In this document: one piece after another, positions 48,158-63,050 of the stretch
How the letters are laid out: every line of letters starts with the position of its first letter
How positions within the stretch are numbered: position 1 is the stretch's first letter
NCBI GenBank assembly: GCA_947488345.1
Contig: CANKZQ010000002.1
Coordinates: forward strand, 310,001 to 374,000
Length of the DNA: 64,000 bases
Direction: 5' to 3'
DNA from: an uncultured Flavobacteriaceae bacterium
GTDB taxonomy: Bacteria; Bacteroidota; Bacteroidia; Flavobacteriales; Flavobacteriaceae
Made by a program: the position numbers and the translations under genes
The notes under the pieces: model-generated
Databases searched by the model: none
Seen by the model: the letters and a program-made list of their open reading frames with translations, nothing else
Told to the model about the DNA's origin: nothing

Positions 48158-48372
48158 TAAATAAGATTGAATTTTGGCAAAGGTAGAAATTTAGGATTAG
48201 CAGAAAAATTTGACCTTAAGTTTGTCAGTTTTTTATAAAATTGAATCATTCTTAATTTGTAAAATATAAAATCTTAGTCTTGATTATTAAGAACTTGTAA
48301 TCTTCAGAATAAAAATATGTTGAATAGCTTAAAAAAAGCGAGTAAAATTATGGTTCTAAAAATCTATTTTAT

Positions 48373-48380
48373 TACATTTG
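48373..48380 (+). promoter_or_regulatory. -7 promoter box for tRNA-Ser
   Basis: TACATTTG, exact TAnnTTTG match, about 38 bases before the tRNA. The rest of the 260-bp gap to the aldehyde dehydrogenase gene shows only that gene's TACCTTTG box (48185-48178). Confidence 0.6.
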
Positions 48381-48417
48381 CACCCGCACTTTTAGAAGTG
48401 TAGTTCATTAAAATTTA

Positions 48418-48504
48418 GGAGAGGTGCCGGAGTGGTCGAACGGGGCTCCCTGCTAAGGAGTTGTACCCGTAAGGGTACCGGGGGTTCGAATCCCTTCCTC
48501 TCCG
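48418..48504 (+). tRNA. tRNA-Ser (GCT)
   Basis: An 87-nt cloverleaf with a long variable arm (GTACCCGTAAGGGTAC) as expected for serine. Acceptor GGAGAGG pairs with CCTCTCC, the anticodon is GCT in CTGCTAA, the T loop is GGTTCGAATCC, and the discriminator is G. CCA is not encoded. Confidence 0.97.
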
Positions 48505-48633
48505 CTTTTTATGAATTCATAGGCTTGATTCGCCTAATTAAAAGAATCACGGTTTGAGTACGTGATATAAAGCCATGCGCAAGTTGGCACTATCGCTAAA
48601 AAATGTCTACCAGGCATTTTCAAACACTCAGTC

Positions 48634-48711
48634 CGGGGTGTAGCGTAGCCCGGTTATCGCGCCGCGTTTGGGACGCGGAGGTCGCAGGTTCGAATCCTGC
48701 CACCCCGACCA
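48634..48711 (+). tRNA. tRNA-Pro (TGG)
   Basis: Acceptor CGGGGTG pairs with CACCCCG. The anticodon arm CCGCG / CGCGG has loop TTTGGGA (anticodon TGG, G37), and the T arm is GCAGGTTCGAATCCTGC. Unlike the serine tRNA it has CCA encoded (48709-48711). Confidence 0.97.
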
Positions 48712-48713
48712 TT

Positions 48714-48748
48714 AAAAGCTGAACATAATGTTCAGCTTTTTTGTTTTT
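48714..48748 (+). terminator. Terminator after the tRNA-Ser/tRNA-Pro pair
   Basis: Stem AAAAGCTGAAC / GTTCAGCTTTT with TTGTTTTT behind it. Confidence 0.85.
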
Positions 48749-48766
48749 ATAAGGATGGAGCTTGCT

Positions 48767-49251
48767 CAACATCTGAAATGAAAACAAAAAAATAGAAAGA
48801 CATCGTCTTTCAGCTTTTAATAAGCAACAAGCCCACTATCAGGATCACAAGTGAAGCGAGTAACCCGAAAAAATTCTACTGTTTCTGGATCACAGATCAA
48901 GTCTGGAGTGACAAATAATATGTACATTGATAAAATCGTTCAGTTTTTAATGAGCAACAAGCCCACTATCAGGATCACGAGTGATGCGAGTAATCCTAGA
49001 TTCCTACCTTCACAGGAATGACAAAAGAAAACAACACTTTCAACTTTTAATGAGCAACAAGCCCACTATCAGGACCACGAGTGAAGCGAGTAATCCTGAA
49101 TTCCTGCCTTCGCAGGAATGACAAAAGAAAACAGCACTTTCAGCTTTTAATGAGCAACAAGTCCATTATCAGGATTACGAACTTTCGCGAGATAATCCGT
49201 TAAAATCTCAGTAATAAATCATCATCAACATCCGAAATGAAAACAAAAAAA
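48767..49251. repeat. Tandem-repeat block bracketed by 26-bp direct repeats
   Basis: Four units begin at 48811, 48941, 49041 and 49141, each starting like CAGCTTTTAATGAGCAACAA followed by GCCCACTATCAGGAT and a GAAGCGAGTAATCC-like hairpin arm. The units starting at 48941 and 49041 are 100 bp long and also carry ATTCCTGCCTTCGCAGGAAT, a short hairpin common in dispersed bacterial repeats. The block is flanked by CAACATCTGAAATGAAAACA (48767) and CAACATCCGAAATGAAAACA (49226), each followed by A-runs. The 579-bp gap from tRNA-Pro to the next gene contains this block, two terminators and no reading frame. Confidence 0.85.
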
Positions 49252-49272
49252 CCGACACAAATGTGTCGGTTT
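49249..49272 (-). terminator. Terminator of the 97-residue protein gene
   Basis: Stem AAACCGACAC / GTGTCGGTTT. On the minus strand it continues into TTTTTTTGTTTTC. Confidence 0.8.
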
Positions 49273-49290
49273 CACTCATATTGTGTTTCA

Positions 49291-49584
49291 TTAGTTTAAG
49301 GAAAATCCTTCAAAATCATCAACTATTTCCTCTTCTTTAGGCGTAATCGACTCCAAAATTTGATCTACGAAACTATAATCTAGCTTTCTGAATCTATCCC
49401 TTGCATATGCCCGGAATCCGCTATTTGGACTCTTCAACTCTCTCAAAATTAAACCACCATCAAACGGATTAAACCCAATAATGGTATATATTTCATTTTC
49501 GGTAAGACCACCTACATTATACAATCTACGTTTTGCATTTAAACAAACTACTTTTTCTCCGATTTCAAATTGTGTATTTCTCAT
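49291..49584 (-). CDS. Small conserved protein of unknown function
   Basis: A 97-residue cytoplasmic protein. The first 70 residues look like a small SH3/KOW-like beta-barrel (FEIGEKVVCLNAKRRLYNVG, NEIYTIIGFNP, GLILRELKSPN, RDRFRKL). An acidic tail (ITPKEEEIVDDFEGF) follows. The beta-barrel pattern recalls proteins that bind nucleic acid or ribosomes. No family name is given. It is monocistronic. Confidence 0.7.
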   Translation of the reverse strand: MRNTQFEIGEKVVCLNAKRRLYNVGGLTENEIYTIIGFNPFDGGLILRELKSPNSGFRAYARDRFRKLDYSFVDQILESITPKEEEIVDDFEGFSLN

Positions 49585-49713
49585 TATGCTATTCTTTACT
49601 ATTATAAAATTACATCAAAAAAATCGTTTAGAAGGATAAATTAGATGTAACAACAATTACTATCGACCAATGGAAGATAATGATAGGTAAGTTGATAACC
49701 AGTATGTTAAATA

Positions 49714-49779
49714 TAAAAAACCGCCTTATGAACTTCATAAGGCGGGCACTTTATTGGATGATATCAGATTATGATATCA
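49714..49779 (-). terminator. Terminator of DUF2911 gene 1 with an upstream palindrome pair
   Basis: Strong stem CCGCCTTATGAA / TTCATAAGGCGG followed on the minus strand by TTTTTTATATTT. Just before it lie two copies of the palindrome TGATATCA (49759-49766 and 49772-49779), which can form a further hairpin. Confidence 0.85.
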
Positions 49780-49817
49780 ATGTTTAGCGCTCTCATGTAT
49801 ACTTTTATATAAACTAT

Positions 49818-50426
49818 TTAGCTTTTTTTATCTTCTTGCAATTCGCTACGATCAGTATTGAACTTTGTAGCCACTGTTCCTTTCTTTTTCACTTCTAAAG
49901 GAATTTTTACTCTTGTCGTATCCCAACCTAACACCATTTGCAATGCTTCTTTATGCTCTCTAAAACTTATTGAAAATACTTTCAACTCTTCAGCTCTGCT
50001 TGGATTTACTCTAACTCTAGCAACATCAAATACTGGATCATATTGAAATGCGCCTAAAACGTCTAAATTTGAACTCAAGATCACTTCCCACTCTCTTTCA
50101 CCTGGTATAGTATATAATACATATGTACCTGCAGGAACTTTGACCCCACCAAATACAATATCTTGATAAAATTTAACCTCGGTTGCTTCGTTGGCTCCTG
50201 TTCTCCATATTTCATTGTAGGCCACAGTATTTCCAAATACTTTTACATCTTTTTTCGCTGGTCTACCGTATAACACTTTAACTAATGGAGGCGTGACCAT
50301 ACTTTCTCTATAATAAGAAATGTCATGTGGCGCTTCATCTAGTTGACTAAAGCCTTGAGCTGAAGCGTTAACTGTAACTAGCATAATGATTAGAACGAAT
50401 ACGATACTCTGATTTGACTTTTTCAT
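49818..50426 (-). CDS. Secreted DUF2911 family protein, paralogue 1
   Basis: A 202-residue exported protein with signal peptide MKKSNQSIVFVLIIMLVTVNASAQ. The DUF2911 domain (about residues 30-180) is marked by PHDISYYRESMVTPPLVKVLYGRP, EIWRTGANEATEVKFYQDI, VPAGTYVLYTIP and EWEVILSSN. The family's function is unknown; it is found in many Bacteroidota and the fold is probably a beta-sandwich. Two paralogues lie 9-10 kb away. Its promoter carries a three-repeat operator (50530-50580). Confidence 0.9.
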   Translation of the reverse strand: MKKSNQSIVFVLIIMLVTVNASAQGFSQLDEAPHDISYYRESMVTPPLVKVLYGRPAKKDVKVFGNTVAYNEIWRTGANEATEVKFYQDIVFGGVKVPAGTYVLYTIPGEREWEVILSSNLDVLGAFQYDPVFDVARVRVNPSRAEELKVFSISFREHKEALQMVLGWDTTRVKIPLEVKKKGTVATKFNTDRSELQEDKKS

Positions 50427-50494
50427 TTTCTTTTTTTTCTAGACTTTATAATTATGATAGCTTCATATTTCTAAAGTCACATTCAATTATGGTT

Positions 50495-50502
50495 CAAAAG
50501 TA
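50495..50502 (-). promoter_or_regulatory. -7 promoter box of DUF2911 gene 1
   Basis: On the minus strand TACTTTTG, exact TAnnTTTG match. No TTG -33 box is found upstream. Instead the three-repeat operator ends 27 bases away, suggesting an activator-dependent promoter with a leader of about 62 nt. Confidence 0.7.
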
Positions 50503-50529
50503 TTGCCTTTTAGTCTTGTCTCTTATGAT

Positions 50530-50580
50530 ATTCGTTTATTGAATACCTTATGTCGATGAGTGGTATTCTTTTATCGATGA
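50530..50580 (-). promoter_or_regulatory. Operator site 1: three direct repeats with 21-bp period
   Basis: Minus-strand repeats TCATCGATA (50580-50572), TCATCGACA (50559-50551) and TAAACGAAT (50538-50530), spaced exactly 21 bp. Nine-base direct repeats with a 12-base gap are the known layout of LytTR-domain binding sites (for example AgrA). The LytTR gene is 400 bp away. Confidence 0.75.
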
Positions 50581-50600
50581 AGTGAATTAATTACTATAAC

Positions 50601-50866
50601 GTAAAAAAAATAGCTCTAACCATCAATGATTAAAGCTATTTTCAATAAAAATTGCTATGAAATGTTTATACTGATAGGTGCAAGACCTCTATTCTTTTCT
50701 ATAAAATAGTTAAGGAGATTTGTATAGATATACTCATCTCCTTTTCCCCCAACTATGGCGCTATACGCCTATATAAAGGAAGGCGGTTATTGAACCTGAA
50801 AGCACCCCTACTTTCCTTCCTATATATTCCCTTTAACTTACTATGAAAAATTGTTTCGTTAAATTA
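50601..50866 (-). ncRNA. Structured non-coding RNA of about 265 nt under operator site 2
   Basis: A -7 box (50879-50872) predicts a start near 50866; a terminator (stem AAAATAGCT / AGCTATTTT, then T-run) ends it near 50603. Between them I find only a 12-codon frame. Four hairpins are visible: 50771-50783 with 50815-50827 (inner GGTT/AACC), GGCG/CGCC at 50757-50769, AAGGAGAT/ATCTCCTT at 50712-50743, and AGGT/ACCT at 50776-unrelated numbering aside, near 50676-50688. The 3' end carries TTTCATAGCAATTTT, shared with the two elements at 13.3-13.6 kb. A 3'-UTR of the LytTR gene is the alternative. Confidence 0.6.
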
Positions 50867-50871
50867 TATCG

Positions 50872-50879
50872 CAAATATA
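50872..50879 (-). promoter_or_regulatory. -7 promoter box of the non-coding RNA
   Basis: On the minus strand TATATTTG, exact TAnnTTTG match, 28 bases below operator site 2. The same geometry occurs at the other three operator sites. Confidence 0.65.
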
Positions 50880-50907
50880 TATTGAGCACCTGCTGTTATA
50901 GAGGATT

Positions 50908-50958
50908 TTTCGTTTATTGCAACAAATGTATCGGTGAATGGTAACCTAGCGTCGCTAA
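50908..50958 (-). promoter_or_regulatory. Operator site 2: three direct repeats with 21-bp period
   Basis: Minus-strand repeats TTAGCGACG (50958-50950), TCACCGATA (50937-50929) and TAAACGAAA (50916-50908), exactly 21 bp apart, just after the stop of the LytTR gene. Compare sites 1, 3 and 4. Confidence 0.72.
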
Positions 50959-50984
50959 GTTATAATGAAAATAAGAATTGCTAA

Positions 50985-51692
50985 TTAAAGTAAATTGAGT
51001 CGTGTCATCAACTCTGTTCTATTAGATCGACTCACAGGAACCACATCTTTTCGAATTAACACACTATTATCTTCAATATCTATGATCTCATTGGTATTGA
51101 TAATAAAAGAGCGATGAATTTTCAAAAATAAATGAGCAGGTAACTTATTCTCAATCTTCTTCATAGTAGAATGAACCGTATAGTTTTTAGCATCAGTTTT
51201 TATAAGAATATAATCACCTTTCGCTTCAATTAGATAAATACTTGGTAGGTCAATTTTCACCAAGCGACGATCTATGTTTACATACAAATCATCTTGTGAA
51301 TCATCTTTCGTGGTGGATACATCAGCTTTTTTTGACAACGTTCTCTTCGAAGCTTTCTCAATTGATTTTTGAAATCGGTTGAGCTCGATGGGCTTCACTA
51401 AATAATCAATAACACAATCGTATTCAAAAGCTTCGATTGCAAAATTCTTATCAGATGTTGTAAGTATTATTTTTGGGGGATTTTTTAAGGCTTGAATGAA
51501 ATCGAAACCATTAAAATTTGGCATATGAATATCTAAGAAAATCAGATCTACCTCCTCTTGATTCAAAAACTTCATCCCCTCAATAGCACTTGGAAATTGA
51601 TCAACAACTTCTAATCTACTATCGTTAGAACAAAACTGATTAATAATCAATCTTGCTGTAGCATCATCATCTATAATAAGACATTTCATCAT
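50985..51692 (-). CDS. LytTR family response regulator
   Basis: A 235-residue DNA-binding response regulator. The receiver domain (about residues 1-118) has the acidic pair IDDD, phospho-acceptor Asp54 in LIFLDIHMPNFNG and KPIELNRF. The LytTR domain (about 135-235) has DDLYVNIDRRLVKIDLPSIYLIEAKGDYI and HLFLKIHRSFIINTNEI. Last gene of the signalling operon, 4 bp after the HPt gene. It is the obvious candidate to bind the 21-bp-period repeats found at four places nearby. Confidence 0.95.
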   Translation of the reverse strand: MMKCLIIDDDATARLIINQFCSNDSRLEVVDQFPSAIEGMKFLNQEEVDLIFLDIHMPNFNGFDFIQALKNPPKIILTTSDKNFAIEAFEYDCVIDYLVKPIELNRFQKSIEKASKRTLSKKADVSTTKDDSQDDLYVNIDRRLVKIDLPSIYLIEAKGDYILIKTDAKNYTVHSTMKKIENKLPAHLFLKIHRSFIINTNEIIDIEDNSVLIRKDVVPVSRSNRTELMTRLNLL

Positions 51693-51696
51693 TAGA

Positions 51697-52014
51697 CTAT
51701 AACTCGTTTAAATAATTAGATATATTCATTAGCACTTTATTAAACTCCAACGTTAACGATTTATTATTATTTTTAAGGTTATTTTCGTAATCAACCGCTA
51801 ATTGATAGCCCTTGTCTAAGCCTAAGATACTAAATTTATGCTTAAGTTTATGTACAATCTCTGCAGCTTCCTCTAATTTATCAGATTCAATACTACGCTT
51901 GAATTGTTCTATTTCTAAGGGAAATTCTTTCTTCAACACTGAAATCAATTTCAATTCGAAAGCTGCATCACCACTTGACAATTTCTGAATATACTTAAGA
52001 TTTGGTTGTTCCAT
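51697..52014 (-). CDS. Histidine phosphotransfer (HPt) protein
   Basis: A 105-residue all-helical HPt domain. The phospho-accepting His is H55 in AAEIVHKLKHKFSILGL, with conserved hydrophobic helix patterns on both sides. As a separate HPt it would carry phosphate from the hybrid kinase receiver to a response regulator. Intergenic gaps are 3 bp to the PAS kinase gene and 4 bp to the LytTR gene, so a His-Asp-His-Asp relay is encoded in order. Confidence 0.85.
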   Translation of the reverse strand: MEQPNLKYIQKLSSGDAAFELKLISVLKKEFPLEIEQFKRSIESDKLEEAAEIVHKLKHKFSILGLDKGYQLAVDYENNLKNNNKSLTLEFNKVLMNISNYLNEL

Positions 52015-52017
52015 AAT

Positions 52018-53925
52018 TTAAAATTTCTTTAAGGTAAAAAAGATTTTGGTTCCTTTACCTAATTCAGATTCTGCATATACTTTACCTTCATATGCTTCTA
52101 CTATTTTCTTGACGATAGATAAGCCTATTCCCGAAGAATCAAATTCATTGTCTAATTTTTGAAAAACTTCGAATATTTTTTTTAAATATTTTGTTTCAAT
52201 CCCCTTACCATTATCTTCGATACAAAACTTCCAATATTTCCCAAGATCTTCACAACTAATGGTCACAACGGCTTCTGCCTTGTCATTATATGCAATTGCA
52301 TTATGTATTAAGTTCTGAAAAAGTTGCAACAGTCGATATTTGTCGGCCTTTACAATTGGTAATTTACCAATAACATGCATGTTGGTATTCTCTGGAATAT
52401 GCAAAATTGTAGAGATCTCTTCAACCAATTTGTTGGCGTCAATATTATACAATTCTATTTTATCGTAATTCAATGAAGAATAAACTAGAATACCACGAAT
52501 GAGATGCTCCATTTTTTCAACGGTCGCTCTTATAGTATCAAGGGTCTTCATCCCATTGACATCAATTTTATTCTTATAATCTTCTTTAAACCAAGAAATC
52601 AGAGTGTCTAGATTCCGCAAAGGGGCTTTCAAATCATGTGAAACCATATGTGCATAATCTTGCAACTCTTCGTTGCTTTTACTTAGTTTCTTAAGTAATT
52701 GATCTTTTTGATATTCTAATCTTTTGAGATGTGTTATGTCGAGGTGACCTACGATATAACCAACTACTTCGCCATTAATATTATAGTTAGGAGCTACACT
52801 AATTAACCAATACCTCCTACCATTTGAGTCAGTATCAAAATCAAATTCTAATGATTCTGATTTACCCTCTTTGATTCTAGTTTGAAGTTCATTCAGTAAC
52901 TTGTTTACATTTTCATTGGGAAATAAATCGCTAATTTGCTTTCCAAGTACTTCTTCTTCAGTTCGGTTATACATTTTTAGCAAACGTTTATTGATGGTTT
53001 TTACCGTATCGAAACCTTCAATTTCTACCAGTCCAAGATTGGTATTGTTTATAATGCTTTCGTACTTATACTTTTCAGCTTGAATATTTTTCTTGTATCG
53101 TTTCTTCAGCGTTATGTCTCTATAGGTCCATAAATGACCATTATAAACACTATCAATATATATAGGAATAAAATCGCGTTCCAAAACGCTGCCGTTTTTC
53201 ATTATTAATTCATCTCCATAAACGGGCTTTTTGTTTTTTGAAATAGCCTTTATTCTATTTACAAACCCATCTCCGTCTACAAAAAGATGTTTGCTTTGCT
53301 CTGCAGAATTTGAACAGTCTTGCCCTTCGAGAGATTCTGGTGCTAAAGGTATCTTAAACAAATCACAAAACTTTTGGTTTGTACTTAAGATGATTCTATT
53401 CTCATCTTCTAACAAAACGGCATTGTCTTTATCTAATATAAGCGTTTCTAATCTTTTCTCCGATTTGACAAGCGCTTGCTCTTTTCGATGAGATTCGGTA
53501 ATATCTCTTACAATACCTTGCGCGGCAATAGGTATGTTATTTTCATCATAGATAATACTCGCATTTACACTTGTATACTTTACAGTAGTATCTTTTGTTT
53601 TAATAAAAGTTCGAAAGTTTGTTAAAACACCCTCTTGAACCAGTTTTTTAAAAGAATCTGAAATGTTATCAAATTCTTCAGGTAAGGTTAATTGCATTAA
53701 GTTAAAATCATCTTTCTCGATATTATAACCTAGCATTTCCTTCGCTTTTCCGTTCATTTTAAGAACGTTACCACTCAAATCAATCATCAAGTAGGCATCA
53801 GCCAAGTTTTGAAAAACAGCATTAAATTCGGCTTTCTGTTTGTTAAAATTTCTTTCGAGAATTCGTCTCTCTTTTCGCTCCTTCAATAAGGCATTTTGTA
53901 GATGTTCGAGTTCACCAGTTGCCAT
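52018..53925 (-). CDS. Soluble PAS-domain sensor histidine kinase
   Basis: A 635-residue kinase without a transmembrane segment. A short coiled coil (1-35) is followed by three PAS domains (about 36-145, 160-275, 285-400, each ending like GIVRDITE/WTYRDITLK/GHLDITHLKR), a HisKA domain with H430 in HMVSHDLKAPLRNLDTL, and the HATPase domain (about 520-635, NLIHNAIAY, CIEDNGKGIE, GIGLSIVKKIVEAYEGKV). The HDLKAPLRNLDTL block resembles phytochrome-type kinases, which often pair with single-domain receivers like the gene 4 bp upstream. No chromophore-binding GAF domain is seen. Confidence 0.95.
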   Translation of the reverse strand: MATGELEHLQNALLKERKERRILERNFNKQKAEFNAVFQNLADAYLMIDLSGNVLKMNGKAKEMLGYNIEKDDFNLMQLTLPEEFDNISDSFKKLVQEGVLTNFRTFIKTKDTTVKYTSVNASIIYDENNIPIAAQGIVRDITESHRKEQALVKSEKRLETLILDKDNAVLLEDENRIILSTNQKFCDLFKIPLAPESLEGQDCSNSAEQSKHLFVDGDGFVNRIKAISKNKKPVYGDELIMKNGSVLERDFIPIYIDSVYNGHLWTYRDITLKKRYKKNIQAEKYKYESIINNTNLGLVEIEGFDTVKTINKRLLKMYNRTEEEVLGKQISDLFPNENVNKLLNELQTRIKEGKSESLEFDFDTDSNGRRYWLISVAPNYNINGEVVGYIVGHLDITHLKRLEYQKDQLLKKLSKSNEELQDYAHMVSHDLKAPLRNLDTLISWFKEDYKNKIDVNGMKTLDTIRATVEKMEHLIRGILVYSSLNYDKIELYNIDANKLVEEISTILHIPENTNMHVIGKLPIVKADKYRLLQLFQNLIHNAIAYNDKAEAVVTISCEDLGKYWKFCIEDNGKGIETKYLKKIFEVFQKLDNEFDSSGIGLSIVKKIVEAYEGKVYAESELGKGTKIFFTLKKF

Positions 53926-53929
53926 TAAA

Positions 53930-54343
53930 CTACTTTATGATTAACTTATTGATGCTCCAATAATCGAGTAACATTTCCATTTTAAGAACATATTCCTCAT
54001 ATTTTAACGGTTTTATAATATAACCAGCGATACCCAATTCATAGCAACGTTTTAAGTCTTTATAGTTACTTGATGTGGTTAAAACAACTACTGGTATATA
54101 TTGTAACTCCTTATTATTTTTTAACTCGGCAAGAAATTCGATACCATTAACTTTTGGCATATTTAAATCGAGTAAGATAATACTTGGCAATTTGTCTTTT
54201 TCAGTCAATATCTGCTGTGCTTCTTCACCATTGTTTGCCTCAATTACCTCATGATTAACTTCAAATTTTGACAATACTCGTTTGAACTTCATCACCTCAA
54301 TTGCATCATCTTCAATTAATAATATTTTCAACGGTGTTAACAT
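53930..54343 (-). CDS. Stand-alone response regulator receiver
   Basis: A 137-residue single-domain receiver, similar in layout to Rcp1 of cyanobacterial phytochromes. It has the acidic pair EDD (residues 11-13), phospho-acceptor Asp59 in PSIILLDLNMPKVNGIEF, Thr in VVVLTTSSNYKD and Lys in GYIIKPLKYEEY. It has no output domain, so it works through protein contacts or as a phosphate sink. It is the first gene after a 138-bp gap that holds operator site 3 and a -7-like box. Confidence 0.93.
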   Translation of the reverse strand: MLTPLKILLIEDDAIEVMKFKRVLSKFEVNHEVIEANNGEEAQQILTEKDKLPSIILLDLNMPKVNGIEFLAELKNNKELQYIPVVVLTTSSNYKDLKRCYELGIAGYIIKPLKYEEYVLKMEMLLDYWSINKLIIK

Positions 54344-54366
54344 ATATAACTGTTTATCTTAACGTG

Positions 54367-54452
54367 TAAAATTAATAGAACAGTATAAAATATATAATGA
54401 ATATCGACAAAGCTACTTGATGCTTCGTTAAAACGTAGGAAAGTATCGGTGA
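54367..54452 (-). promoter_or_regulatory. Operator site 3 and internal promoter of the signalling operon
   Basis: Minus-strand repeats TCACCGATA (54452-54444), TTAACGAAG (54431-54423) and TTGTCGATA (54410-54402) again have exact 21-bp spacing. Twenty-seven bases below lies TAATTTTA (54374-54367), a one-mismatch -7 box. This would give receiver-PAS kinase-HPt-LytTR their own promoter under LytTR autocontrol. Confidence 0.68.
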
Positions 54453-54481
54453 ACGGTTTTTCAACAATCTTAAGGTAAAAA

Positions 54482-56014
54482 TTACTTCTCATAATAGGTA
54501 CTTACCACACTTATTAATTGATCTGGCGTATATGGTTTAGAGATAACTTCTAAAAAACCTAAATTTTTATAATTCTCAATATCCTCTTTATTGCTATTCG
54601 CCGTTAAGGCAATTATTGGTGTTGAACCATTAAATTCTGCAAATAGTTGTTTTTCTTGAATCAAATCTGAACCTGATTTATTGGGCATATTGATATCTAA
54701 CAATATAAGATCAAAGGTCTTATCCTGCAACGCTGACAAGGCTTCCATCCCATCATTCACCAAGGTCGTACTCGCACCTTCCTTCGATAATAAGTGTGCT
54801 ACAATAACGTGGTTCAATTCGTCGTCATCGGCATATAAAATCTCTGCTCCTTTTAAATCATGTTTGAACAACCTTGATTTTAAAAAATTGTTTGGTGCTA
54901 GATCTGAACTTGAAACTTTTCTAAATGGAATTTCAATATTAAATGAAGTTCCAATATTGACTTCGCTCTCGACAGTGATGTTTCCATTCATGGCCTCCAC
55001 CAATCGTTTCACAATGGACAGTCCTAATCCGGCTCCACCATAAACGCGATTATCATTTAGTTCCACCTGTTCGTATTCATTAAACATTCTATTGACTTGC
55101 TCAGTGGTCATTCCGCGCCCTGTATCTTTCAGGTTTAATGCTATGGTTACCGATTCATCTGTTTCAGACGTTGGACTTACCGTTAGTTTTATACTTCCTT
55201 TTTTTGTGAATTTGTATGCATTACTAATGAGATTCGACAATATTTGTGTTAATCGCACAGCGTCTGCTAAAACCTCTGATGGAATTTTTTCTGATATAGT
55301 ACATTCTAAAGGAACACCACTTCCCTTATGCTGTAATTCAAAATCTTGAACGCACATTTGCACCGTTTCCTTTATAGATATAGGTTCAATTACTAGTTCA
55401 AGTTTCCCTGCTTCAATTCGTGAGATATCTAAAATATCATTAACAATCACTTTTAAATTGTTTCCGGCCATCAACAGCGATTTCACATATCCTAATGCAG
55501 AAGGACAATTAGATTCGGTAGCGATCATATTCGCATAACCCAAAATGGCATTTAGGGGGTTCCTAACTTCGTGACTCATCATGGCTAGAAAACGTGACTT
55601 CTCTTCGGTAGCCTTTTCTGCAACTTTACGGAGTTCTGCGAGTTCTTTGTTTTGGCGGTCAATTTGATGTTTAACGATAGAAATTTCATTTCTATTTTGA
55701 TTTAACTCTCGTACGTACTTATAAACATTTGTGCGATTTATAATCAAAACAGCAATAGAATCTGCAGTCTTTAACAATTCTACATCGACATTATATTCTT
55801 CATTACCTGAATTAATGAGCATCCCATCCATTGAGAAAGATTCTTGAGAAGGCAAACTATCAAGTGTAGATTCTAAAAAAGGACATGTAGCATAAATAGA
55901 AGTTCCTTCTATAAATTCCGATAAGGCAAAAAAACCCGCTTCGATTTCAATAATTTGGCCTGAAAAGTCGACGATAATCTGTATGAATCTATCTTGAATC
56001 GTAGCTGGTAGCAC
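54482..56014 (-). CDS. Soluble hybrid sensor histidine kinase with receiver
   Basis: A 510-residue cytoplasmic hybrid kinase starting at GTG. The N-terminal 115 residues are PAS-like (FIQIIVDFSGQIIEIEAGF). A short coiled coil leads to HisKA with H148 (MMSHEVRNPLNAILGYANMI), HATPase (about 255-370, NLISNAYKFTKKGSI, DTGRGMT, GAGLGLSIVKRLVEAM) and a receiver (about 388-508) with phospho-acceptor Asp near residue 438 (DLILLDINMPNKSGSDL). No membrane segment or recognisable ligand domain is present. Six base pairs after the GTPase gene, it may take its input from that module. Confidence 0.95.
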   Translation of the reverse strand: MLPATIQDRFIQIIVDFSGQIIEIEAGFFALSEFIEGTSIYATCPFLESTLDSLPSQESFSMDGMLINSGNEEYNVDVELLKTADSIAVLIINRTNVYKYVRELNQNRNEISIVKHQIDRQNKELAELRKVAEKATEEKSRFLAMMSHEVRNPLNAILGYANMIATESNCPSALGYVKSLLMAGNNLKVIVNDILDISRIEAGKLELVIEPISIKETVQMCVQDFELQHKGSGVPLECTISEKIPSEVLADAVRLTQILSNLISNAYKFTKKGSIKLTVSPTSETDESVTIALNLKDTGRGMTTEQVNRMFNEYEQVELNDNRVYGGAGLGLSIVKRLVEAMNGNITVESEVNIGTSFNIEIPFRKVSSSDLAPNNFLKSRLFKHDLKGAEILYADDDELNHVIVAHLLSKEGASTTLVNDGMEALSALQDKTFDLILLDINMPNKSGSDLIQEKQLFAEFNGSTPIIALTANSNKEDIENYKNLGFLEVISKPYTPDQLISVVSTYYEK

Positions 56015-56020
56015 AGAAGT

Positions 56021-56506
56021 TTATTTTAATGATTGTTCACCTAATAATGTAAAAGCGTCTTCTACAAATTCATCTTCCTTAGCACTCGTTACAAAGTCAA
56101 CGGTAACCTCAACACTTTTTAGCACTTTATCTAACGCAGCATCGTCCAATAAATCTTTTTTATTACCAATAACGGTAATATCTTTTAGCCCAGACAGCTC
56201 TCTAACTCCATCAATGTATTTGTTTATATCTACATAAGTCTCTTCTCTACTAACATCGAATACAAACATAGCCGCACTGGCCCCCAAAAAGTAAGCCTTT
56301 GGTACTTTCTCATCATTTTGTGTGCCGGCAACATCCCAAATTAATAATTTCAATGGTTGGTTGTTGATTAGAACTTCTTTCGTACTCACCCGAACACCAA
56401 TGGTACTAATATAGTCTTCGGAAAATTCATTATTCACAAATCTTCTGATTAAAGAAGTCTTGCCGACGCCAAAATTACCAACGAGTAATACTTTTTTTGC
56501 AATCAT
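56021..56506 (-). CDS. Ras-like small GTPase
   Basis: A 161-residue Ras-superfamily GTPase. G1 is GNFGVGKTS (10-18). A switch I Thr lies in DYISTIGV, G3 is WDVAGTQ (D58), G4 is NKKD (115-118) and G5 is TSAK (140-143). G3 departs from DTAGQE: Thr follows Gly and Gln comes one place later, which may alter intrinsic hydrolysis. There is no lipidation motif. It resembles the bacterial Rup/MglA-type small GTPases described in surveys of prokaryotic Ras proteins. It is encoded 17 bp after the roadblock/longin-like gene, a likely regulator. Confidence 0.9.
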   Translation of the reverse strand: MIAKKVLLVGNFGVGKTSLIRRFVNNEFSEDYISTIGVRVSTKEVLINNQPLKLLIWDVAGTQNDEKVPKAYFLGASAAMFVFDVSREETYVDINKYIDGVRELSGLKDITVIGNKKDLLDDAALDKVLKSVEVTVDFVTSAKEDEFVEDAFTLLGEQSLK

Positions 56507-56523
56507 ATAGTTTGGGGATGAAA

Positions 56524-57345
56524 TTACTGTTCTATATCTTCATTGATTAAATAGGTAACAATCGCTTTATTAAGTTTGGATTCATTTTCTAAATACGATC
56601 TATCGCCTAAAATAACTTCAGCAAAATTATTGATATTTGTAGTAAGTTGTTCTTTAAAATCAGTGGTTTGCACGCCAGAGATCGCCATGGCTATATATAT
56701 GGTATTAAAATTATGCAATGCAATATGAAATGTTTCAAATTTAATATCCTCTAAATCTTGTCCTTCTTTTGCAAAAGCATCTTCGGCAAAAGATTTAATC
56801 GCCGTTAACATGCCCGACACCATATCTTTATTCGCAATATTTCCGGTAGAATGATTACCTAATAAAATTCCAGAGTTTTTTTCGATGATAAAAATCTCTT
56901 CCAATGCAGGTTTAAAGGCATCTTGCAATGCTGCATCGCCTTCACTAACACCACTCACCTTTCTTTTAAAATACTCTTTAAACGAAAAGGTTCGTTTTAC
57001 ACTTTGATTAATACTGTCAGATAGTTTTTTTATTTCGGCGACAATCGCCTTCTTAATAAGTTTACCCATGATAGGATACAAAGCGTCTACAACTTCATCT
57101 TGAGAATCTCGAATCTGAGTTTTAATCGTTTGTGTTATGGTATCACCAAAATATGTTGGGAAGTTTTCACGTAAATCTTCAATTTTCTCGTCGATCAGTG
57201 GGTCTACACGGGAAGCTACTTTTTCGCGCATGACAATTTCGTCACTCAGCGCGTTGAACTTCTCTCTATCATCTTCTAGAAGTAATTCTCTAAGCAACTC
57301 AAAACGGTCATCTCCTTTTGGATTATCTTGAGGTGATTTTTTCAT
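56524..57345 (-). CDS. Roadblock/longin-like protein, probable GTPase partner
   Basis: A 273-residue cytoplasmic protein. The helical N-terminal half (FELLRELLLEDDREKFNALS, VVDALYPIMGKLIKKAIVAEI) matches the N-terminal region I remember from OmpA-type proteins of Cyanobacteria and Proteobacteria, here without the OmpA domain. The second half (about 165-260; EIFIIEKNSGILLGNHSTG, DMVSGMLTAIKSFAEDAF) has the strand-helix pattern of roadblock/longin domains such as MglB, which regulate small GTPases. The start abuts the stop of the coiled-coil gene. The domain call is by pattern only. Confidence 0.72.
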   Translation of the reverse strand: MKKSPQDNPKGDDRFELLRELLLEDDREKFNALSDEIVMREKVASRVDPLIDEKIEDLRENFPTYFGDTITQTIKTQIRDSQDEVVDALYPIMGKLIKKAIVAEIKKLSDSINQSVKRTFSFKEYFKRKVSGVSEGDAALQDAFKPALEEIFIIEKNSGILLGNHSTGNIANKDMVSGMLTAIKSFAEDAFAKEGQDLEDIKFETFHIALHNFNTIYIAMAISGVQTTDFKEQLTTNINNFAEVILGDRSYLENESKLNKAIVTYLINEDIEQ

Positions 57346-57705
57346 CTATCCTTGCAGCATCGTAGCAATCTTCTCCAGCGCCTTTCCTAATTTTTTTCTA
57401 TCTGCTTTGCCCTCGTCTAATTGCGTCATTTTTTTCTCAAATGTCTCAATCATTTTTTGCATCGCCATTTCATTTGACTTTTGAAGTTTCTCTATTTTAT
57501 TTTCAAGGCTCGAAGCTAAATTTACTAAGTTTTTATCGGTGTCTTCTTTAAGTGCAGAAATTTGATTTGAGACTTCGGTAAAGTCCTTATCGTATTGCTG
57601 CATGTTCTCACCGAAAATTAAGTCTCTTACCGCTGCTAACCTATTTTCAGCAGCACTATTTGAAGCACCACTATTTGCGATATCTTCATTCTTGTGTTTG
57701 GCCAT
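57346..57705 (-). CDS. Coiled-coil protein, first gene of the GTPase-phosphorelay operon
   Basis: A 119-residue soluble protein. It starts with a block RLAAVRDLIFGENMQQYDKDF, followed by a long coiled coil (about residues 40-100) and the ending KADRKKLGKALEKIATMLQG. Proteins of this layout are found beside the roadblock-like protein in other phyla, where they are often misnamed. Likely a scaffold for the module. The promoter is TATATTTG at 57829-57822, giving a leader of about 110 nt. Confidence 0.75.
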   Translation of the reverse strand: MAKHKNEDIANSGASNSAAENRLAAVRDLIFGENMQQYDKDFTEVSNQISALKEDTDKNLVNLASSLENKIEKLQKSNEMAMQKMIETFEKKMTQLDEGKADRKKLGKALEKIATMLQG

Positions 57706-57821
57706 TTTAAAATGTTTGTGGGTTCCTATTAATTATTAAATAACGTAAAAATCAACTTTTAGTATTGTTTTTAATTCAAAAAACACCCCAAAGCAGATAC
57801 ATTTTTAACATCTCCTTTGAA

Positions 57822-57829
57822 CAAATATA
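57822..57829 (-). promoter_or_regulatory. -7 promoter box of the GTPase-phosphorelay operon
   Basis: On the minus strand TATATTTG, exact match. No 21-bp-period repeats are found upstream, so the first half of the operon seems not to be under the LytTR-type operator. The 424-bp gap to tRNA-Arg otherwise holds only the tRNA-side TATATTTG at 58019-58026 on the plus strand. Confidence 0.6.
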
Positions 57830-58129
57830 GATAAAAAAACGCATCTGAAGTCTCAAAACCACATAACACACTGCTTTAAAAGCCTTTATCTTTTATGTTT
57901 TTGAGAAAAAGTAATAGAAGTAACGGGTGTGTTTATTCTTCAATCTAATTGATTTATAAAGTTGATGTAGAAATACTAAAAAAAAGTCATTTTATGTATC
58001 TCATTTTATCAAAAATTGTATATTTGCCAACCTTAAAAAGGGAAAATAAAACAAACGTTCTTATCAAACATATATCATTGTTTAAAAGCCAGCTTAAAGC
58101 ATTGATAAAAATATACTAATTCAAATACT

Positions 58130-58203
58130 GGTCGCGTAGCTCAGCTGGATAGAGCATCTGCCTTCTAAGCAGACGGTCATAGGTTCGAATCCTATCGCGA
58201 TCA
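58130..58203 (+). tRNA. tRNA-Arg (TCT)
   Basis: A 74-nt cloverleaf: acceptor GGTCGCG pairs with CGCGATC (one G-U pair), D arm GCTCAGCTGGATAGAGC, anticodon loop CTTCTAA (TCT), T arm ATAGGTTCGAATCCTAT, discriminator A. CCA is not encoded. A terminator follows (58211-58246). Confidence 0.97.
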
Positions 58204-58210
58204 CAGATAT

Positions 58211-58246
58211 AAAGCCTCAAAAGTAATTTCTTTTGAGGTTTTCTGT
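58211..58246 (+). terminator. Terminator after tRNA-Arg
   Basis: Stem CCTCAAAAG / CTTTTGAGG followed by TTTTCTG. Confidence 0.75.
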
Positions 58247-58344
58247 TTTAAGTAAGACAAGACTTATATTCTTATCACAAAAAAAACCTAAAGCTTACAC
58301 CTTAGATTTTTTATTACAGTTTAGCGAGTTGTATGATGAACTGA

Positions 58345-58929
58345 CTAGTTTGTCAAAATCAGATTATTCTCGTTAATTATTTTTCTCATATTAATTAAAG
58401 CATACCGCATTCTACCCAATGAAGTATTGATACTTGACCCGGTGTTTTCTGCTATTTCTTTAAAGCTCATATCTCTATAAATTCGCATATTTAACACTTC
58501 TTTTTGCTCATTAGGCAATGCTTCCATTACCTTTCGAACGTCACAATGAATTTGCTCTTTTATTGTTTGCTTTTCGGCGTTCAACGAAGTATCACTAATG
58601 ACCGAGAAAATATCAAAATCATCGGTATTCTTAAATAGTGGTTTTCTACTTGCCTTTCTGAAATGATCCATAGTTAAATTATGCGCAATACGCATTGCCC
58701 AAGAAATAAACCTGCCCTCTTCGTTGTATCTGCCTGCTTTTAAAGTGGTTATTATTTTTATAAATGTATCTTGAAAAATGTCTTCAGTTGTTTCTCTATC
58801 TAGCACTTTAGAATAGATTAAGCTGTAAATTCTTTGTTTGTGACGGCGAATTAAAACCTCTAATGATTTTTCATTCCCGTTAATGTAGTTGGCGACTAGA
58901 ACATTGTCCTCCAGTTTTTGATTTTGCAT
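58345..58929 (-). CDS. ECF-type RNA polymerase sigma factor
   Basis: A 194-residue sigma-70 family factor from the ATG at 58929 (MQNQKLEDN). Region 2 is about residues 20-90 (VLIRRHKQRIYSLIYSKV, DIFQDTFIKIITTL, GRFISWAMRIAHNLTMDHFRK). Region 4 is about 130-185 (LPNEQKEVLNMRIYRDMSFKEIAENTGSSINTSLGRMRYAL). No anti-sigma gene is adjacent, so control may be at transcription. The promoter carries operator site 4. The three genes upstream share ECF-like promoters it may recognise. Confidence 0.93.
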   Translation of the reverse strand: MQNQKLEDNVLVANYINGNEKSLEVLIRRHKQRIYSLIYSKVLDRETTEDIFQDTFIKIITTLKAGRYNEEGRFISWAMRIAHNLTMDHFRKASRKPLFKNTDDFDIFSVISDTSLNAEKQTIKEQIHCDVRKVMEALPNEQKEVLNMRIYRDMSFKEIAENTGSSINTSLGRMRYALINMRKIINENNLILTN

Positions 58930-58993
58930 AATTCCCTTATTAATATTAATTCGATGTAATTCACTAAACACTCCTCGGTTAGTGATTCAATTA

Positions 58994-59079
58994 CAAAGTT
59001 ATCTTAGTTATTGCATGAAATGTCTCTTTTTCGATAGGACCAATAAAAGTATCGATGAATGGAAACTTAATATCGATGT
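58994..59079 (-). promoter_or_regulatory. Sigma factor promoter with operator site 4
   Basis: Minus-strand repeats ACATCGATA (59079-59071), TCATCGATA (59058-59050) and CTATCGAAA (59037-59029), exactly 21 bp apart. Twenty-seven bases below is TAACTTTG (59001-58994), an exact -7 box. The leader is about 58 nt. Confidence 0.74.
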
Positions 59080-59104
59080 TTCGTTTATATGCCATAAGTT
59101 CAAA

Positions 59105-59135
59105 AGAGAAACCCCGCCTAAAGGCAAGGTTTTTA
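59105..59135 (-). terminator. Terminator of DUF2911 gene 2
   Basis: Stem AAACCCCGCC / GGCAAGGTTT (two G-U pairs on the transcript) with a 4-nt loop, followed on the minus strand by TCTCTTTTG. Confidence 0.65.
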
Positions 59136-59159
59136 CTCATTAATTCAAACAATTTAAAT

Positions 59160-59765
59160 TCAATTTTGATGTGTTTTTTTAGGCTTGTACAAACCTGCAT
59201 AGTATTCTTGCTCATTAAAATCTAACATAACCTTCGCTCGAGTACTTCCCCATCCGAATACCATTGAAATATTATTCTTTGCCACTTTCTTAAAACCTAT
59301 AGAAAAGGTAGCTATCTTTTCTGCTTTGCTAACAGGTACCAAAACGCGTGCAACGTCAAAAACGCTACTATATTGATGCGCTCCAAATACATCGGTATTA
59401 CTACTTAAAATTATTTCCCATTGATTTTCATTAGGGATTGTATAAAGAACATAAGTACCGGCACTCACTAATTTGTCACCGAACATAACATCTTTGTATA
59501 TTTTTATCTCAGTTGCTTCATTTGCCCCTGTTCTCCACACTTCATTAAATGGAACTTCCGAACCAAAAACTTCAGTATCTTTTGTATGAGTAGGTCTACC
59601 ATACAATACCTTTACTAAAGGCGTAGTTACCTTTGAAGTTCTGTAATAGGCAATATCATGAGGGGTGTCATCTAACGCTTTGAACCTTTGAGCGGTAGAA
59701 GATAGCGTATACAATACAGCCGCTACTAAAATGATAATTAATCTAACATCGAATGATCTTTTCAT
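59160..59765 (-). CDS. Secreted DUF2911 family protein, paralogue 2
   Basis: A 201-residue exported protein with an N-terminal signal segment (RLIIILVAAVLYTLSSTAQ). It has PHDIAYYRTSKVTTPLVKVLYGRP, EVWRTGANEATEIKIYKDV, GTYVLYTIPNENQWEIILSSN and FGWGSTRAKV. It is about as similar to paralogue 1 as to paralogue 3 across the whole domain. The promoter has AGGA and TTGT boxes at the spacing shared with the next two genes, weaker than theirs. Confidence 0.9.
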   Translation of the reverse strand: MKRSFDVRLIIILVAAVLYTLSSTAQRFKALDDTPHDIAYYRTSKVTTPLVKVLYGRPTHTKDTEVFGSEVPFNEVWRTGANEATEIKIYKDVMFGDKLVSAGTYVLYTIPNENQWEIILSSNTDVFGAHQYSSVFDVARVLVPVSKAEKIATFSIGFKKVAKNNISMVFGWGSTRAKVMLDFNEQEYYAGLYKPKKTHQN

Positions 59766-59800
59766 AATTAAAGGTTTGAATTATTTCTTTGTCCTTTAAT

Positions 59801-59828
59801 ATGAAACAATTAAGATCAAAAAATTCCT
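59801..59828 (-). promoter_or_regulatory. ECF-like promoter of DUF2911 gene 2
   Basis: On the minus strand AGGA starts at 59828 and TTGT at 59809, 19 bases apart, the same spacing as at 60578/60559 and 61393/61374. The flanks are less conserved here (TTGTTTCATA). Confidence 0.45.
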
Positions 59829-59849
59829 ACCATAAATAATTATAAATAC

Positions 59850-59883
59850 AAAATGCTCAAACTAGTGAAAGTTTGAGCATTTT
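59850..59883 (-). terminator. Terminator of DUF2911 gene 3
   Basis: Stem AAAATGCTCAAACT / AGTTTGAGCATTTT. On the minus strand it is preceded by AGGGGAGTTA, similar to the sequence before the terminator at 60823-60855. Confidence 0.75.
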
Positions 59884-59906
59884 AACTCCCCTATTTATTT
59901 AGCGCA

Positions 59907-60515
59907 TTAATTCATTATTCTTTTCTTTGCTATAGCGTCATGTATTGATGCGTAGTCCTCATCTGTACTAAATCCTAATGGTACATGCACTCTTGTTGCA
60001 CCCCACCCTAGTGTCATTACAATTTTATTCCTTTCTTGTTTTCTAAAACTAATTGCAAATGTTTCTATATTCTCTCCTTTACGAACAGGTACTTTCATTC
60101 TTGCTATATCAAACATCGCATCATATTGGAAAGCTCCTATAACATCAGTATTGCTACTTATAATAACTTCCCATTCCTTTTTATTTGGAATTGTATATAA
60201 TACATATGTCCCTGCTTCTATAACTGTGTCTCCAAATACAACTTTATCATAGAATCTAATTTCAGTTGCCTCGTTAGCTCCTGTTCTCCACAATTCATTA
60301 AATGGAACTTCAGTACCAAAAACATCTTTATTACCATTGTTTGATGGTCTTCCATAAATAGCCTTTACCAATGGTTTTGTAATTCTCGTTTCTCTATAAT
60401 ACGCAATATCATGCGGTGCTTTATCTACTTTTACAGAACCTTGTGAAAACATTGTTGTAGTTGTCATTAAGGTCAAAATTATGATAATCGTGTTTGGGCT
60501 GATTAACTTTTTCAT
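59907..60515 (-). CDS. Secreted DUF2911 family protein, paralogue 3
   Basis: About 202 residues from the ATG at 60515 (MKKLISPNTIIIILTLMTTT, a signal peptide); an upstream in-frame ATG would add 11 residues within the leader. It has PHDIAYYRETRITKPLVKAIYGRP, ELWRTGANEATEIRFYDKV, GTYVLYTIPNKKEWEVIISSN and LGWGATRVHVPLGF. It is the third member of the DUF2911 set in this locus. It has its own promoter and terminator, so it is probably a single-gene unit. Confidence 0.9.
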   Translation of the reverse strand: MKKLISPNTIIIILTLMTTTTMFSQGSVKVDKAPHDIAYYRETRITKPLVKAIYGRPSNNGNKDVFGTEVPFNELWRTGANEATEIRFYDKVVFGDTVIEAGTYVLYTIPNKKEWEVIISSNTDVIGAFQYDAMFDIARMKVPVRKGENIETFAISFRKQERNKIVMTLGWGATRVHVPLGFSTDEDYASIHDAIAKKRIMN

Positions 60516-60550
60516 ATTGTAATTTTTATATAATACTTTCTCTTTCACTA

Positions 60551-60578
60551 TAAAGACAACTGCTTCTATAAATCTCCT
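60551..60578 (-). promoter_or_regulatory. ECF-like promoter of DUF2911 gene 3
   Basis: On the minus strand CAGGAGAT (AGGA starts at 60578), 12 bases, then TTGTCTTTA (TTGT starts at 60559), followed by TAGTGAAAGAGAAAG. The same blocks with the same spacing precede the gene at 61317. There is no TAnnTTTG box. This fits a -35/-10 pair of the GGA...GTC type used by ECF sigma factors. Confidence 0.6.
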
Positions 60579-60656
60579 GAAAAAAAATCAAAAAAATTAT
60601 TTAATTTCATTTAAATAACTAATAAACAGCGCTTTAAACATACTTTATTTAACCCC

Positions 60657-60670
60657 GAACTTATAAGTTC
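60657..60670. repeat. Perfect 14-bp palindrome
   Basis: GAACTTATAAGTTC in the 367-bp gap between DUF2911 gene 3 and the 133-residue protein gene. Apart from this palindrome, the promoter and the terminator, nothing else is evident in that gap. Confidence 0.5.
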
Positions 60671-60822
60671 ATTTTATATACTCTCCACTATACTTACGTT
60701 AAATACGAAGTAACATACAACCTTACAGATGTTTACTATTAAGAATTAGACTGGTATAACATGTTTAGTTTGTTTTTACAGACCTCATATGCGTGAAAAA
60801 ACAGCTTTCCTTTTATACGATA

Positions 60823-60855
60823 AAATGCCTTAACCGAAGATCGGTTAAGGCATTT
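60823..60855 (-). terminator. Terminator of the 133-residue secreted protein gene
   Basis: Stem AAATGCCTTAACCGA / TCGGTTAAGGCATTT with a 3-base loop. On the minus strand it is preceded by ATAGCAAAAAGGGGAATTA. Confidence 0.8.
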
Positions 60856-60915
60856 CGTAATTCCCCTTTTTGCTATAATTTATTCTAGGTAATGCTTTAT
60901 TGCTATTTAATTTTA

Positions 60916-61317
60916 TTACTCATTCATTGCTACACCATCTTCCCTCAAAGACGCCGCCAATCTTCGTGATGCGGATACTTTAATCTTAGAAGTTATAACA
61001 AAGTTAGATGTATATAAACGAATATTATAAGTTCCCTCAATTACTTTAGATTTATCTATCTGGCATTTTTTACCATTATTTTTTGCAGAAAAAATTGGTT
61101 CATTTGTTTTTGAATCCAGTAATTGATATTTATAAAAAGAGTTTGCAGCTTCTAGTTTAATGCTTTCATCATTGCTATTATCAAAAACAGTTAGGGCCAC
61201 AGTGCCATCAGGAGCCATTGTAACATATTTTAAAATTTTTGGAATGCTTGAATTGGTTTGTGCAAAAGTTGCTATTGTTATAAAACTTATGATAATGGTT
61301 AGGAATAATTTTCTCAT
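60916..61317 (-). CDS. Small secreted protein of unknown function
   Basis: A 133-residue exported protein with signal peptide MRKLFLTIIISFITIATFAQ. The mature domain is a short beta-sandwich (AVALTVFDNSNDESIKL-like, YKYQLLDSKTNEPIFSAKN, GTYNIRLYTSNFVITSKIKVS). Its last 70 residues resemble a type IX secretion C-terminal domain (the GTYNIRLYT...SKIKV layout), but a longer tail (ASRRLAASLREDGVAMNE) follows. Its promoter is nearly identical to that of DUF2911 gene 3, suggesting co-regulation. Confidence 0.75.
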   Translation of the reverse strand: MRKLFLTIIISFITIATFAQTNSSIPKILKYVTMAPDGTVALTVFDNSNDESIKLEAANSFYKYQLLDSKTNEPIFSAKNNGKKCQIDKSKVIEGTYNIRLYTSNFVITSKIKVSASRRLAASLREDGVAMNE

Positions 61318-61365
61318 CGCAATTTATTTTTTTCGGGATTATTATAATTTCTTTCTCTTTCACTG

Positions 61366-61393
61366 TAAAGACAAGAATGTTTTAATATCTCCT
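61366..61393 (-). promoter_or_regulatory. ECF-like promoter of the 133-residue protein gene
   Basis: On the minus strand CAGGAGAT (AGGA starts at 61393), 12 bases, TTGTCTTTA (TTGT starts at 61374), then CAGTGAAAGAGAAAG. The layout and sequence match the promoter at 60551-60578. Confidence 0.6.
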
Positions 61394-61453
61394 GAAAAAA
61401 ATATGTTTAGTTCGAATTAAAAATCATAACTACTTGATTTTTAGGTACAAAAA

Positions 61454-62422: not shown

Positions 62423-62594
62423 AGATCATTATAAATGATAAAACTAGCTATAAAATAAATAGAATAAAAAAACTGCTTCAATTTTATATTGAAGCAGCCG
62501 TTGAGAATTAAATCGAAAAAGTTAATATATCTTCCCATTCCTGAGCCATTTGATGTAGCTCTATACTATTTTTCATTTTGATATTTAATTTCTC

Positions 62595-63050
62595 TTATCT
62601 TTTTTGAAAGGTCGACAGATCTGTTCCGCCATTGCCTCCATTTATATCAATTAAATCAATCTTAAAGTTACTTATTGCTACAATCTCCCAATCATCAGAT
62701 AGTTCTTCAAAGTTGGGCGGTGAGGAGAATGAAATATTAAAATCAATATCTCCGTCATTACTACTACTATCGTCCGTTACAGACCAGATTCCATTTATAG
62801 TAGTTGAACCATTGGTAGCCGTTAACGTACCGCTATCACTAAAAGTAAAATCATTACCGTTGTAGTCATTGGTTTCATTTTCTCCCGAATCTATATAATT
62901 CGATATATACCAAGTTCCAGATTTGGCTACAGCTATGGCATCTTGGATACTTGTGCTATCTATTGTATCATCTGACGAACAACTTAGTGAGGTCAGTGAT
63001 AAGCTCAAAAGGCACAAAACATTTAAAAAATACTTGTTATTTTTCATCAT
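62595..63050 (-). CDS. Lipoprotein with a lipocalin-like domain
   Basis: A 151-residue lipoprotein (Cys24 in LSLTSLSC) followed by an acidic linker and a beta-barrel-like domain of about 105 residues: GTWYISNYIDSGENETNDYN, FTFSDSGTLTATNG, INGIWSVTDD, NFEELSDDWEIVAIS. The same block order (W-(Y/F)-(I/V)-x..., F-F/S-DGT, G-(T/I)WSV, PNF...W.(I/V)) ends the large protein encoded just upstream. Function unknown. It may be a stand-alone copy of that domain. Confidence 0.78.
   Translation of the reverse strand: MMKNNKYFLNVLCLLSLSLTSLSCSSDDTIDSTSIQDAIAVAKSGTWYISNYIDSGENETNDYNGNDFTFSDSGTLTATNGSTTINGIWSVTDDSSSNDGDIDFNISFSSPPNFEELSDDWEIVAISNFKIDLIDINGGNGGTDLSTFQKR

Follow-up and report, generated by a model that had tools for sequence, protein, structure and literature searches.

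Candidate triple-repeat LytTR operators at five promoters of a Flavobacteriaceae phosphorelay locus

The window considered here, a 64,000-nucleotide (nt) stretch from an uncultured Flavobacteriaceae bacterium (contig CANKZQ010000002.1, positions 310,001 to 374,000; assembly GCA_947488345.1), encodes a phosphorelay operon that includes a LytTR response regulator, and carries five arrays of three short direct repeats, termed O1 to O5, which are proposed as operators of that regulator. The operon, the arrays and the features that they precede all lie on the minus strand. The first operon gene specifies a stand-alone receiver protein (53930..54343; Pfam Response_reg), followed by a PAS-domain histidine kinase (52018..53925; Pfam PAS and HATPase_c, with HisKA at 25.7 bits against a cut-off of 26.9), an Hpt phosphotransfer protein (51697..52014; Pfam Hpt) and the LytTR regulator (50985..51692; Pfam LytTR at an expectation value (E) of 3.5e-19, Response_reg E 2.6e-18), the proposed binder of all five arrays and the sole DNA-binding protein identified in the conserved operon. 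O3 (54402..54452) stands upstream of this operon; O1 (50530..50580), composed like the others of three repeats at a period of 21 base pairs (bp), here with 9-bp units, stands upstream of a DUF2911 gene (49818..50426; Pfam DUF2911 E 8.5e-41); O2 (50908..50958), recovered in the scans described below, precedes a predicted small RNA (RNA A); O4 (59029..59079) precedes a gene for a sigma-70-family sigma factor with regions 2 and 4 (58345..58929, a 194-amino-acid (aa) open reading frame (ORF) from ATG; Pfam run on 58345-58935); and O5 (49640..49690), a weaker CTA/CGA/CTA triplet, precedes a gene for a 97-aa protein with no Pfam match (49291..49584).

An initial annotation had described four of these arrays, O1 to O4, and its account of them stands: the triplets are present on the minus strand with an exact 21-bp period, CGA occupies positions 5-7 in all 12 nonamers and A position 3 in 11 of them, and the DUF2911 gene, the small RNA, the receiver-to-LytTR genes and the sigma factor gene are correctly named as targets; the total for the window has been raised to five, with at least one further site in the rest of the genome. 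All four noted triplets are intergenic, between ORFs taken as genes. When CGA is sought three times at period 21, the window yields four minus-strand matches and a single plus-strand match, the latter being the TCGA palindrome of O4, while periods of 18, 19, 20, 22, 23, 24, 31 and 32 give one match in total on both strands, and 200 dinucleotide shuffles average 0.125 matches per window and never exceed 2 (both strands). For ANCGA three times with at most one mismatch, the window holds 5 matches versus 0.18 expected, a number that none of 100 shuffles reaches.

A repeat-unit matrix derived from the orthologous operon promoters of nine relatives (27 training units, one of them a base out of register), excluding both the window and its nearest relative G004, places the same arrays at the top of the 64-kilobase (kb) window. 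At period 21 the five best distinct places are 50961, 59082, 54455, 50583 and 49693 (each the position at which the 15-mer starts on the minus strand), scoring 29.3, 27.2, 24.6, 19.4 and 17.4; the next match that is not a register shift scores 11.9, and the best at eight other periods 15.5. The four noted sites lead this ranking and the fifth, O5, is new. In G004, with a LytTR protein 89% identical to that of the window, these five places again rank highest, at matching distances from the box, although the first repeat of O2 there reads CGT in place of CGA; all five sites thus recur at orthologous promoters of the nearest relative, as the initial annotation had suggested checking. More widely, an array before the first operon gene is found in 19 of 20 LytTR loci fetched, the sole exception being an order-level relative (G062), and in 10 of the 11 non-training loci, two of the 10 nearly duplicating a training locus. 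High-scoring pairs in the fetched loci and the window number 75 at period 21, versus 29 at period 42, and each remaining period between 10 and 44 gives 24 at most; nine of the loci compared are training loci. A full model of two repeats plus promoter box, trained without the window or the G004 C2 locus, gives 24.8 to 37.2 for the five window sites; the best scores of 200 shuffled windows have a mean of 10.2 and a largest value of 26.2. With 65% AT in the window, such repeats might be put down to chance or to phased curvature of AT-rich DNA between genes, but the shuffles, the period test and the conservation at orthologous promoters contradict it, and no site above 20 occurs in 27 loci (501,687 bases; 26 of them Polaribacter-type) without the LytTR operon, so that this explanation is given practically no weight.

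In the window the arrays stand at a near-constant distance from a -7 box. Each noted triplet lies 29-30 nt above a TAnnTTT[GA] box: TACTTTTG (50495..50502) starts 29 nt after the last CGA of O1, TATATTTG (50872..50879) 30 nt after that of O2, TAATTTTA (54367..54374) 29 nt after that of O3 and TAACTTTG (58994..59001) 29 nt after that of O4, in agreement with the distances of 27, 28, 27 and 27 nt below the last nonamer given in the initial annotation; the box TAATTTTA also follows O5 (49605..49612), 29 nt after its last CTA. The O3 box has a terminal A, its G004 equivalent being TAATTTTG. Across 25 loci and the window, 39 such boxes lie within 59 nt below 55 arrays, starting 29 nt after the last CNA in 19 cases and 30 nt in 10, with orthologous arrays counted separately; the remaining 10 are scattered across seven distances, and for three boxes at 50, 50 and 51 the third repeat is underscored, so that the true distance is 29 or 30. 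A study of F. psychrophilum describes TAnnTTTG as the sigma-A -7 box, at -12 to -5 (PMC9723704), which places the last repeat near -40; ending some 30 nt above the -7 box, this repeat would put a bound protein near the position of the -33 element, and an activator contacting polymerase is the likely arrangement at these promoters. The same distance of about 30 nt would also accommodate a LytTR regulator that binds and represses from a site overlapping the -33 region, much as CoxC does at a triplet that overlaps the -35 box, but most LytTR regulators are activators with sites upstream of -35 (PMC11347149), and the 29-30 nt box distance is preserved across genera; repression is accordingly considered unlikely.

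The occurrence of the operator follows that of the regulator. LytTR orthologs were taken as 24 loci in 22 genomes with at least 57% identity, and genome-wide scans were pattern searches with the reversed pattern as control. In 100 genomes, a search for a repeat pair plus a box at 30 nt with at most two mismatches gave 76 matches versus 18 for the control (summed by hand). A LytTR ortholog is present within 35 kb of all 15 exact matches, of 22 of the 23 with one mismatch and of 17 of the 38 with two; the best matches, 37 of the 38 with no or one mismatch, are therefore almost wholly confined to LytTR loci in related genomes, a further check that the initial annotation withstands. Ten of the 15 exact matches fall outside previously inspected stretches, with the LytTR gene as far as about 32 kb away. 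In the genome of the window (G000) the pair pattern matches 13 times versus 8 in the control: five matches lie in the four noted window operators, three at a paralogous locus on contig C3 and one before a gene for a secreted 132-aa protein, and the other four score below 14 in the full model. The site before the secreted 132-aa gene (L139 983-1381, on G000 contig C2) is one further site outside the window; it is found in G000, G002 and G004, and either LytTR paralog could bind it. By eye the 132-aa protein resembles the product of window gene 60916-61317, to which G004 has three matches in a row. Recognition of the repeats by another protein, such as the sigma factor encoded nearby, might be entertained from the sigma gene's place among the window sites and the array that it carries itself; a match to that gene (E 1e-6) is present in G004 alone of the 20 LytTR loci, however, while the others, bar one, have the operator, the boxes fit the sigma-A -7 consensus (PMC9723704), and the best matches follow LytTR, which together render another binder very improbable.

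The conservation and the linkage to LytTR orthologs observed for these repeats and their spacing support the claim of the initial annotation that the adjacent regulator binds them, and the repeats are very probably its operators, from which a LytTR protein driven by the phosphorelay is predicted to activate sigma-A promoters. Several results nevertheless weigh against this assignment. In the full model, O5 (24.8) and O3 (25.6) fall below the single largest shuffle score, O3 being scored on its first two repeats and a different box, and O3 of G004 does not exceed 14; in a three-repeat scan, O3 of the window and of G004 are both clear. Scored with the relatives' model, the first repeats of O1 (0.8), O2 (-1.4), O4 (0.9) and O5 (-7.8) are weak. 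A distal C.A is found in phase in only 37 of 76 sites elsewhere, a set partly overlapping or orthologous, versus no more than 16 at any other offset, from which triplets appear to be a family trait with the distal repeat the weakest. The pair-plus-box pattern had LytTR loci as its source, the matches had already been seen when the 35-kb limit was fixed, and orthologous arrays are not independent evidence. The pair without box shows no excess in 100 genomes at up to two mismatches (136 versus 137 in the control, hand sums), its seven exact matches all lying at LytTR loci, in the operon promoters that supplied the pattern; the pair plus box at a 29-nt gap shows a weak excess (91 versus 62, hand sums; 53 of 100 genomes), with three of its four exact matches at LytTR loci already inspected and one at the secreted 132-aa gene of G004. 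The loose ANCGA triplet (at most one mismatch) likewise has no genome-wide excess, with 25 matches versus 34 in the reversed control and a fourth exact match on contig C4, so that the signal is local and the fuller matrix is needed. Lastly, the genome holds 10 matches to the window regulator at E 1e-30 or better, and the paralog on contig C3 could bind the same sites.

A mechanism consistent with LytTR binding may be outlined as follows. Phosphate would pass from the kinase to the stand-alone receiver, then to the Hpt protein and on to the LytTR regulator, molecules of which would sit side by side on the three repeats, one per two helical turns and on one face of the DNA. So placed, the regulator would activate sigma-A RNA polymerase, with predicted outputs comprising its own operon (positive feedback), the small RNA, the sigma factor, the DUF2911 protein and the 97-aa protein.

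The paralogous loci of this genome and its relatives suggest a wider setting for this system. Of the 19 loci that are not of the window type, 17, among them the C3 locus, have an H-NOX gene in the operon, and the window and G004 C2 copies have none; at the LytTR loci of G021 and G062 no H-NOX match was found, although G021 (L086) has the LytTR operon and operators. The sole HNOB match of the genome (E 2.7e-40) is the C3 H-NOX gene (L099, G000:C3:87000-106000, at 10443-10985), which stands in an operon ordered receiver, H-NOX, histidine kinase, Hpt and LytTR, followed by polysaccharide genes and matching operators. The closest solved chain to its product is 6bdd (E 2.4e-98), the H-NOX of Kordia algicida (PMC7356049). 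Operator-marked genes encode a DUF6923 protein with a type IX secretion system (T9SS) tail, STAS proteins, a flippase, group 1 and group 2 glycosyltransferases, a receiver-glycosyltransferase fusion and, in one genome, UDP-glucose dehydrogenase, identities that rest on Pfam for representatives and on similar N-termini for the rest. In the C3 cluster of the window genome, the flippase and glycosyltransferase have no operator of their own and perhaps belong to the STAS-led gene run.

The LytTR proteins of the two loci are 68% identical, with closely similar LytTR domains, and the C3 operators share the window layout. With both loci in one genome, and its only HNOB match at C3, the window arrays may be true LytTR operators bound mainly by the C3 paralog, or by both regulators, which would bring the window genes into one nitric-oxide regulon. 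Against this, O3 lies on the promoter of the window operon itself, an arrangement shared with relatives in which one copy was seen, and the window repeats tend by eye to CGATA while most other loci have CGACA or CTACA, window-type sites in G004 being mixed; a leading or shared role for the C3 paralog is judged possible but somewhat doubtful. A tree of 21 LytTR proteins, uncertain in its root and weak at half of its inner branches, unites the window copy with that of G004 C2 (97/91) and separates both from the C3 copies.

The two types of locus can be joined in a broader proposal. In Flavobacteriaceae, an H-NOX nitric-oxide phosphorelay would act through LytTR directly on polysaccharide and secreted-protein genes by means of triple operators, and in this genus a second branch of the module, without H-NOX, which it lost or never had, would have been rewired to a GGGG-loop small RNA and a sigma factor in a two-layer cascade; the case for this proposal as a whole is evenly balanced. 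H-NOX has been linked to biofilm (PMC6769237), and this influence may hold here with LytTR as the output.

The small RNA proposed as the O2 target, RNA A, is predicted at 50604..50867 (minus strand; approximate ends, about 260 nt), with a GGGG-loop hairpin and a terminator. Its fold (50604-50858) has a z-score of -4.11 versus shuffles; G004 shows 86% identity across 152 nt, and in 3 of 61 predicted pairs both bases differ between the two genomes. Rfam at gathering score across 46000-64000 gave three tRNAs and no match at RNA A, and matches to RNA A occur in 5 of 100 genomes, those outside G000 and G004 being just 28-30 nt long. A different predicted RNA, RNA B, lies at the equivalent place after the C3 LytTR gene and also in G002 (L099 14140-14290 and L085 3755-3910), behind a LytTR operator; it has a predicted GGGG-loop hairpin, and its terminator stem shows a two-sided change. 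Both bases differ in 2 of its 29 predicted pairs, and it matches 6 of 100 genomes, with only 22-37 nt outside G000 and G002. The GGGG-loop hairpin appears in the two-sequence folds of both RNAs, but the single-sequence fold of RNA B (z -2.61) does not form it. Two roles for RNA A were considered and set aside: a CsrA sponge, as PF02599 has no match in the window genome (95% complete) and matches in 3 of 14 control genomes, and a peptide gene, as a 12-codon ORF picked out by eye is without its ATG in G004.

Among other features of the window, three DUF2911-like genes are present close to one another (49818-50426, 59160-59765 and 59907-60548, the last two alike by eye only), the first alone carrying an operator in the scans made. 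A Ras-like small GTPase is encoded within 56021-57705, with two upstream genes (273 and 119 aa; no Pfam match) and a hybrid kinase after it. This four-gene set recurs in 26 Polaribacter-type loci without a LytTR match (E 1e-6), and these and one more locus have no operator score above 20, for which reason it was rejected as a part of the system.

The arrays would provide a readable promoter layout for a Flavobacteriaceae transcription factor, namely three repeats at 21 bp and 29-30 nt to a TAnnTTTG box, would tie the H-NOX proteins of the family (that of Kordia algicida, 6bdd, being solved) to a testable output of polysaccharide and secreted-protein genes, and would place a predicted small RNA under direct LytTR control. 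Comparable logic is seen with AgrA and RNAIII, and both AgrA and VirR have small-RNA targets. A search of the literature that covered few subscription journals did not find the Bacteroidota promoter layout, the link between H-NOX and polysaccharide genes or the small RNA.

Several characterised systems share features with the loci described here. H-NOX/histidine kinase systems of Shewanella and Vibrio pair an H-NOX gene with a kinase (PMC6769237), as do the relatives and the C3 locus only, but their outputs are cyclic di-GMP (c-di-GMP) or LuxU/LuxO, in contrast to the LytTR regulator with direct promoters suggested here, and the window copy is itself without H-NOX. RcoM1 of Paraburkholderia xenovorans LB400 likewise has three direct repeats 12-13 bp apart and an activator site upstream of -35 (PMC11347149), but its repeats are 8-bp TTCNNGCA units at carbon monoxide (CO)-oxidation genes, and the window regulator differs as a response regulator in a kinase-Hpt operon with a Bacteroidota -7 box. 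The published RcoM/CoxC repeat sequence, TTCNNGCA or TTNNNGCN, is not that of the arrays, the repeats of which are of the TCATCGATA or TTCRTCKACA type. CoxC of Afipia carboxidovorans, an MHYT-LytTR protein, also requires three direct repeats, spaced two helical turns apart (18-21 bp), but is a repressor overlapping -35 with a membrane CO sensor within the same protein. With triple operators already described for RcoM1 and CoxC (PMC11347149), the kind is a known one, and the initial annotation's match to known LytTR sites holds for 9-bp repeats with a 12-bp gap, as published (PMC2766830), with the amendment that usual sites are pairs and triplets are those of RcoM1 and CoxC. SilA, AgrA and VirR are likewise LytTR response regulators that bind 9-10 bp direct repeats at a 21-bp period (PMC2766830), with two repeats there and three in the window.

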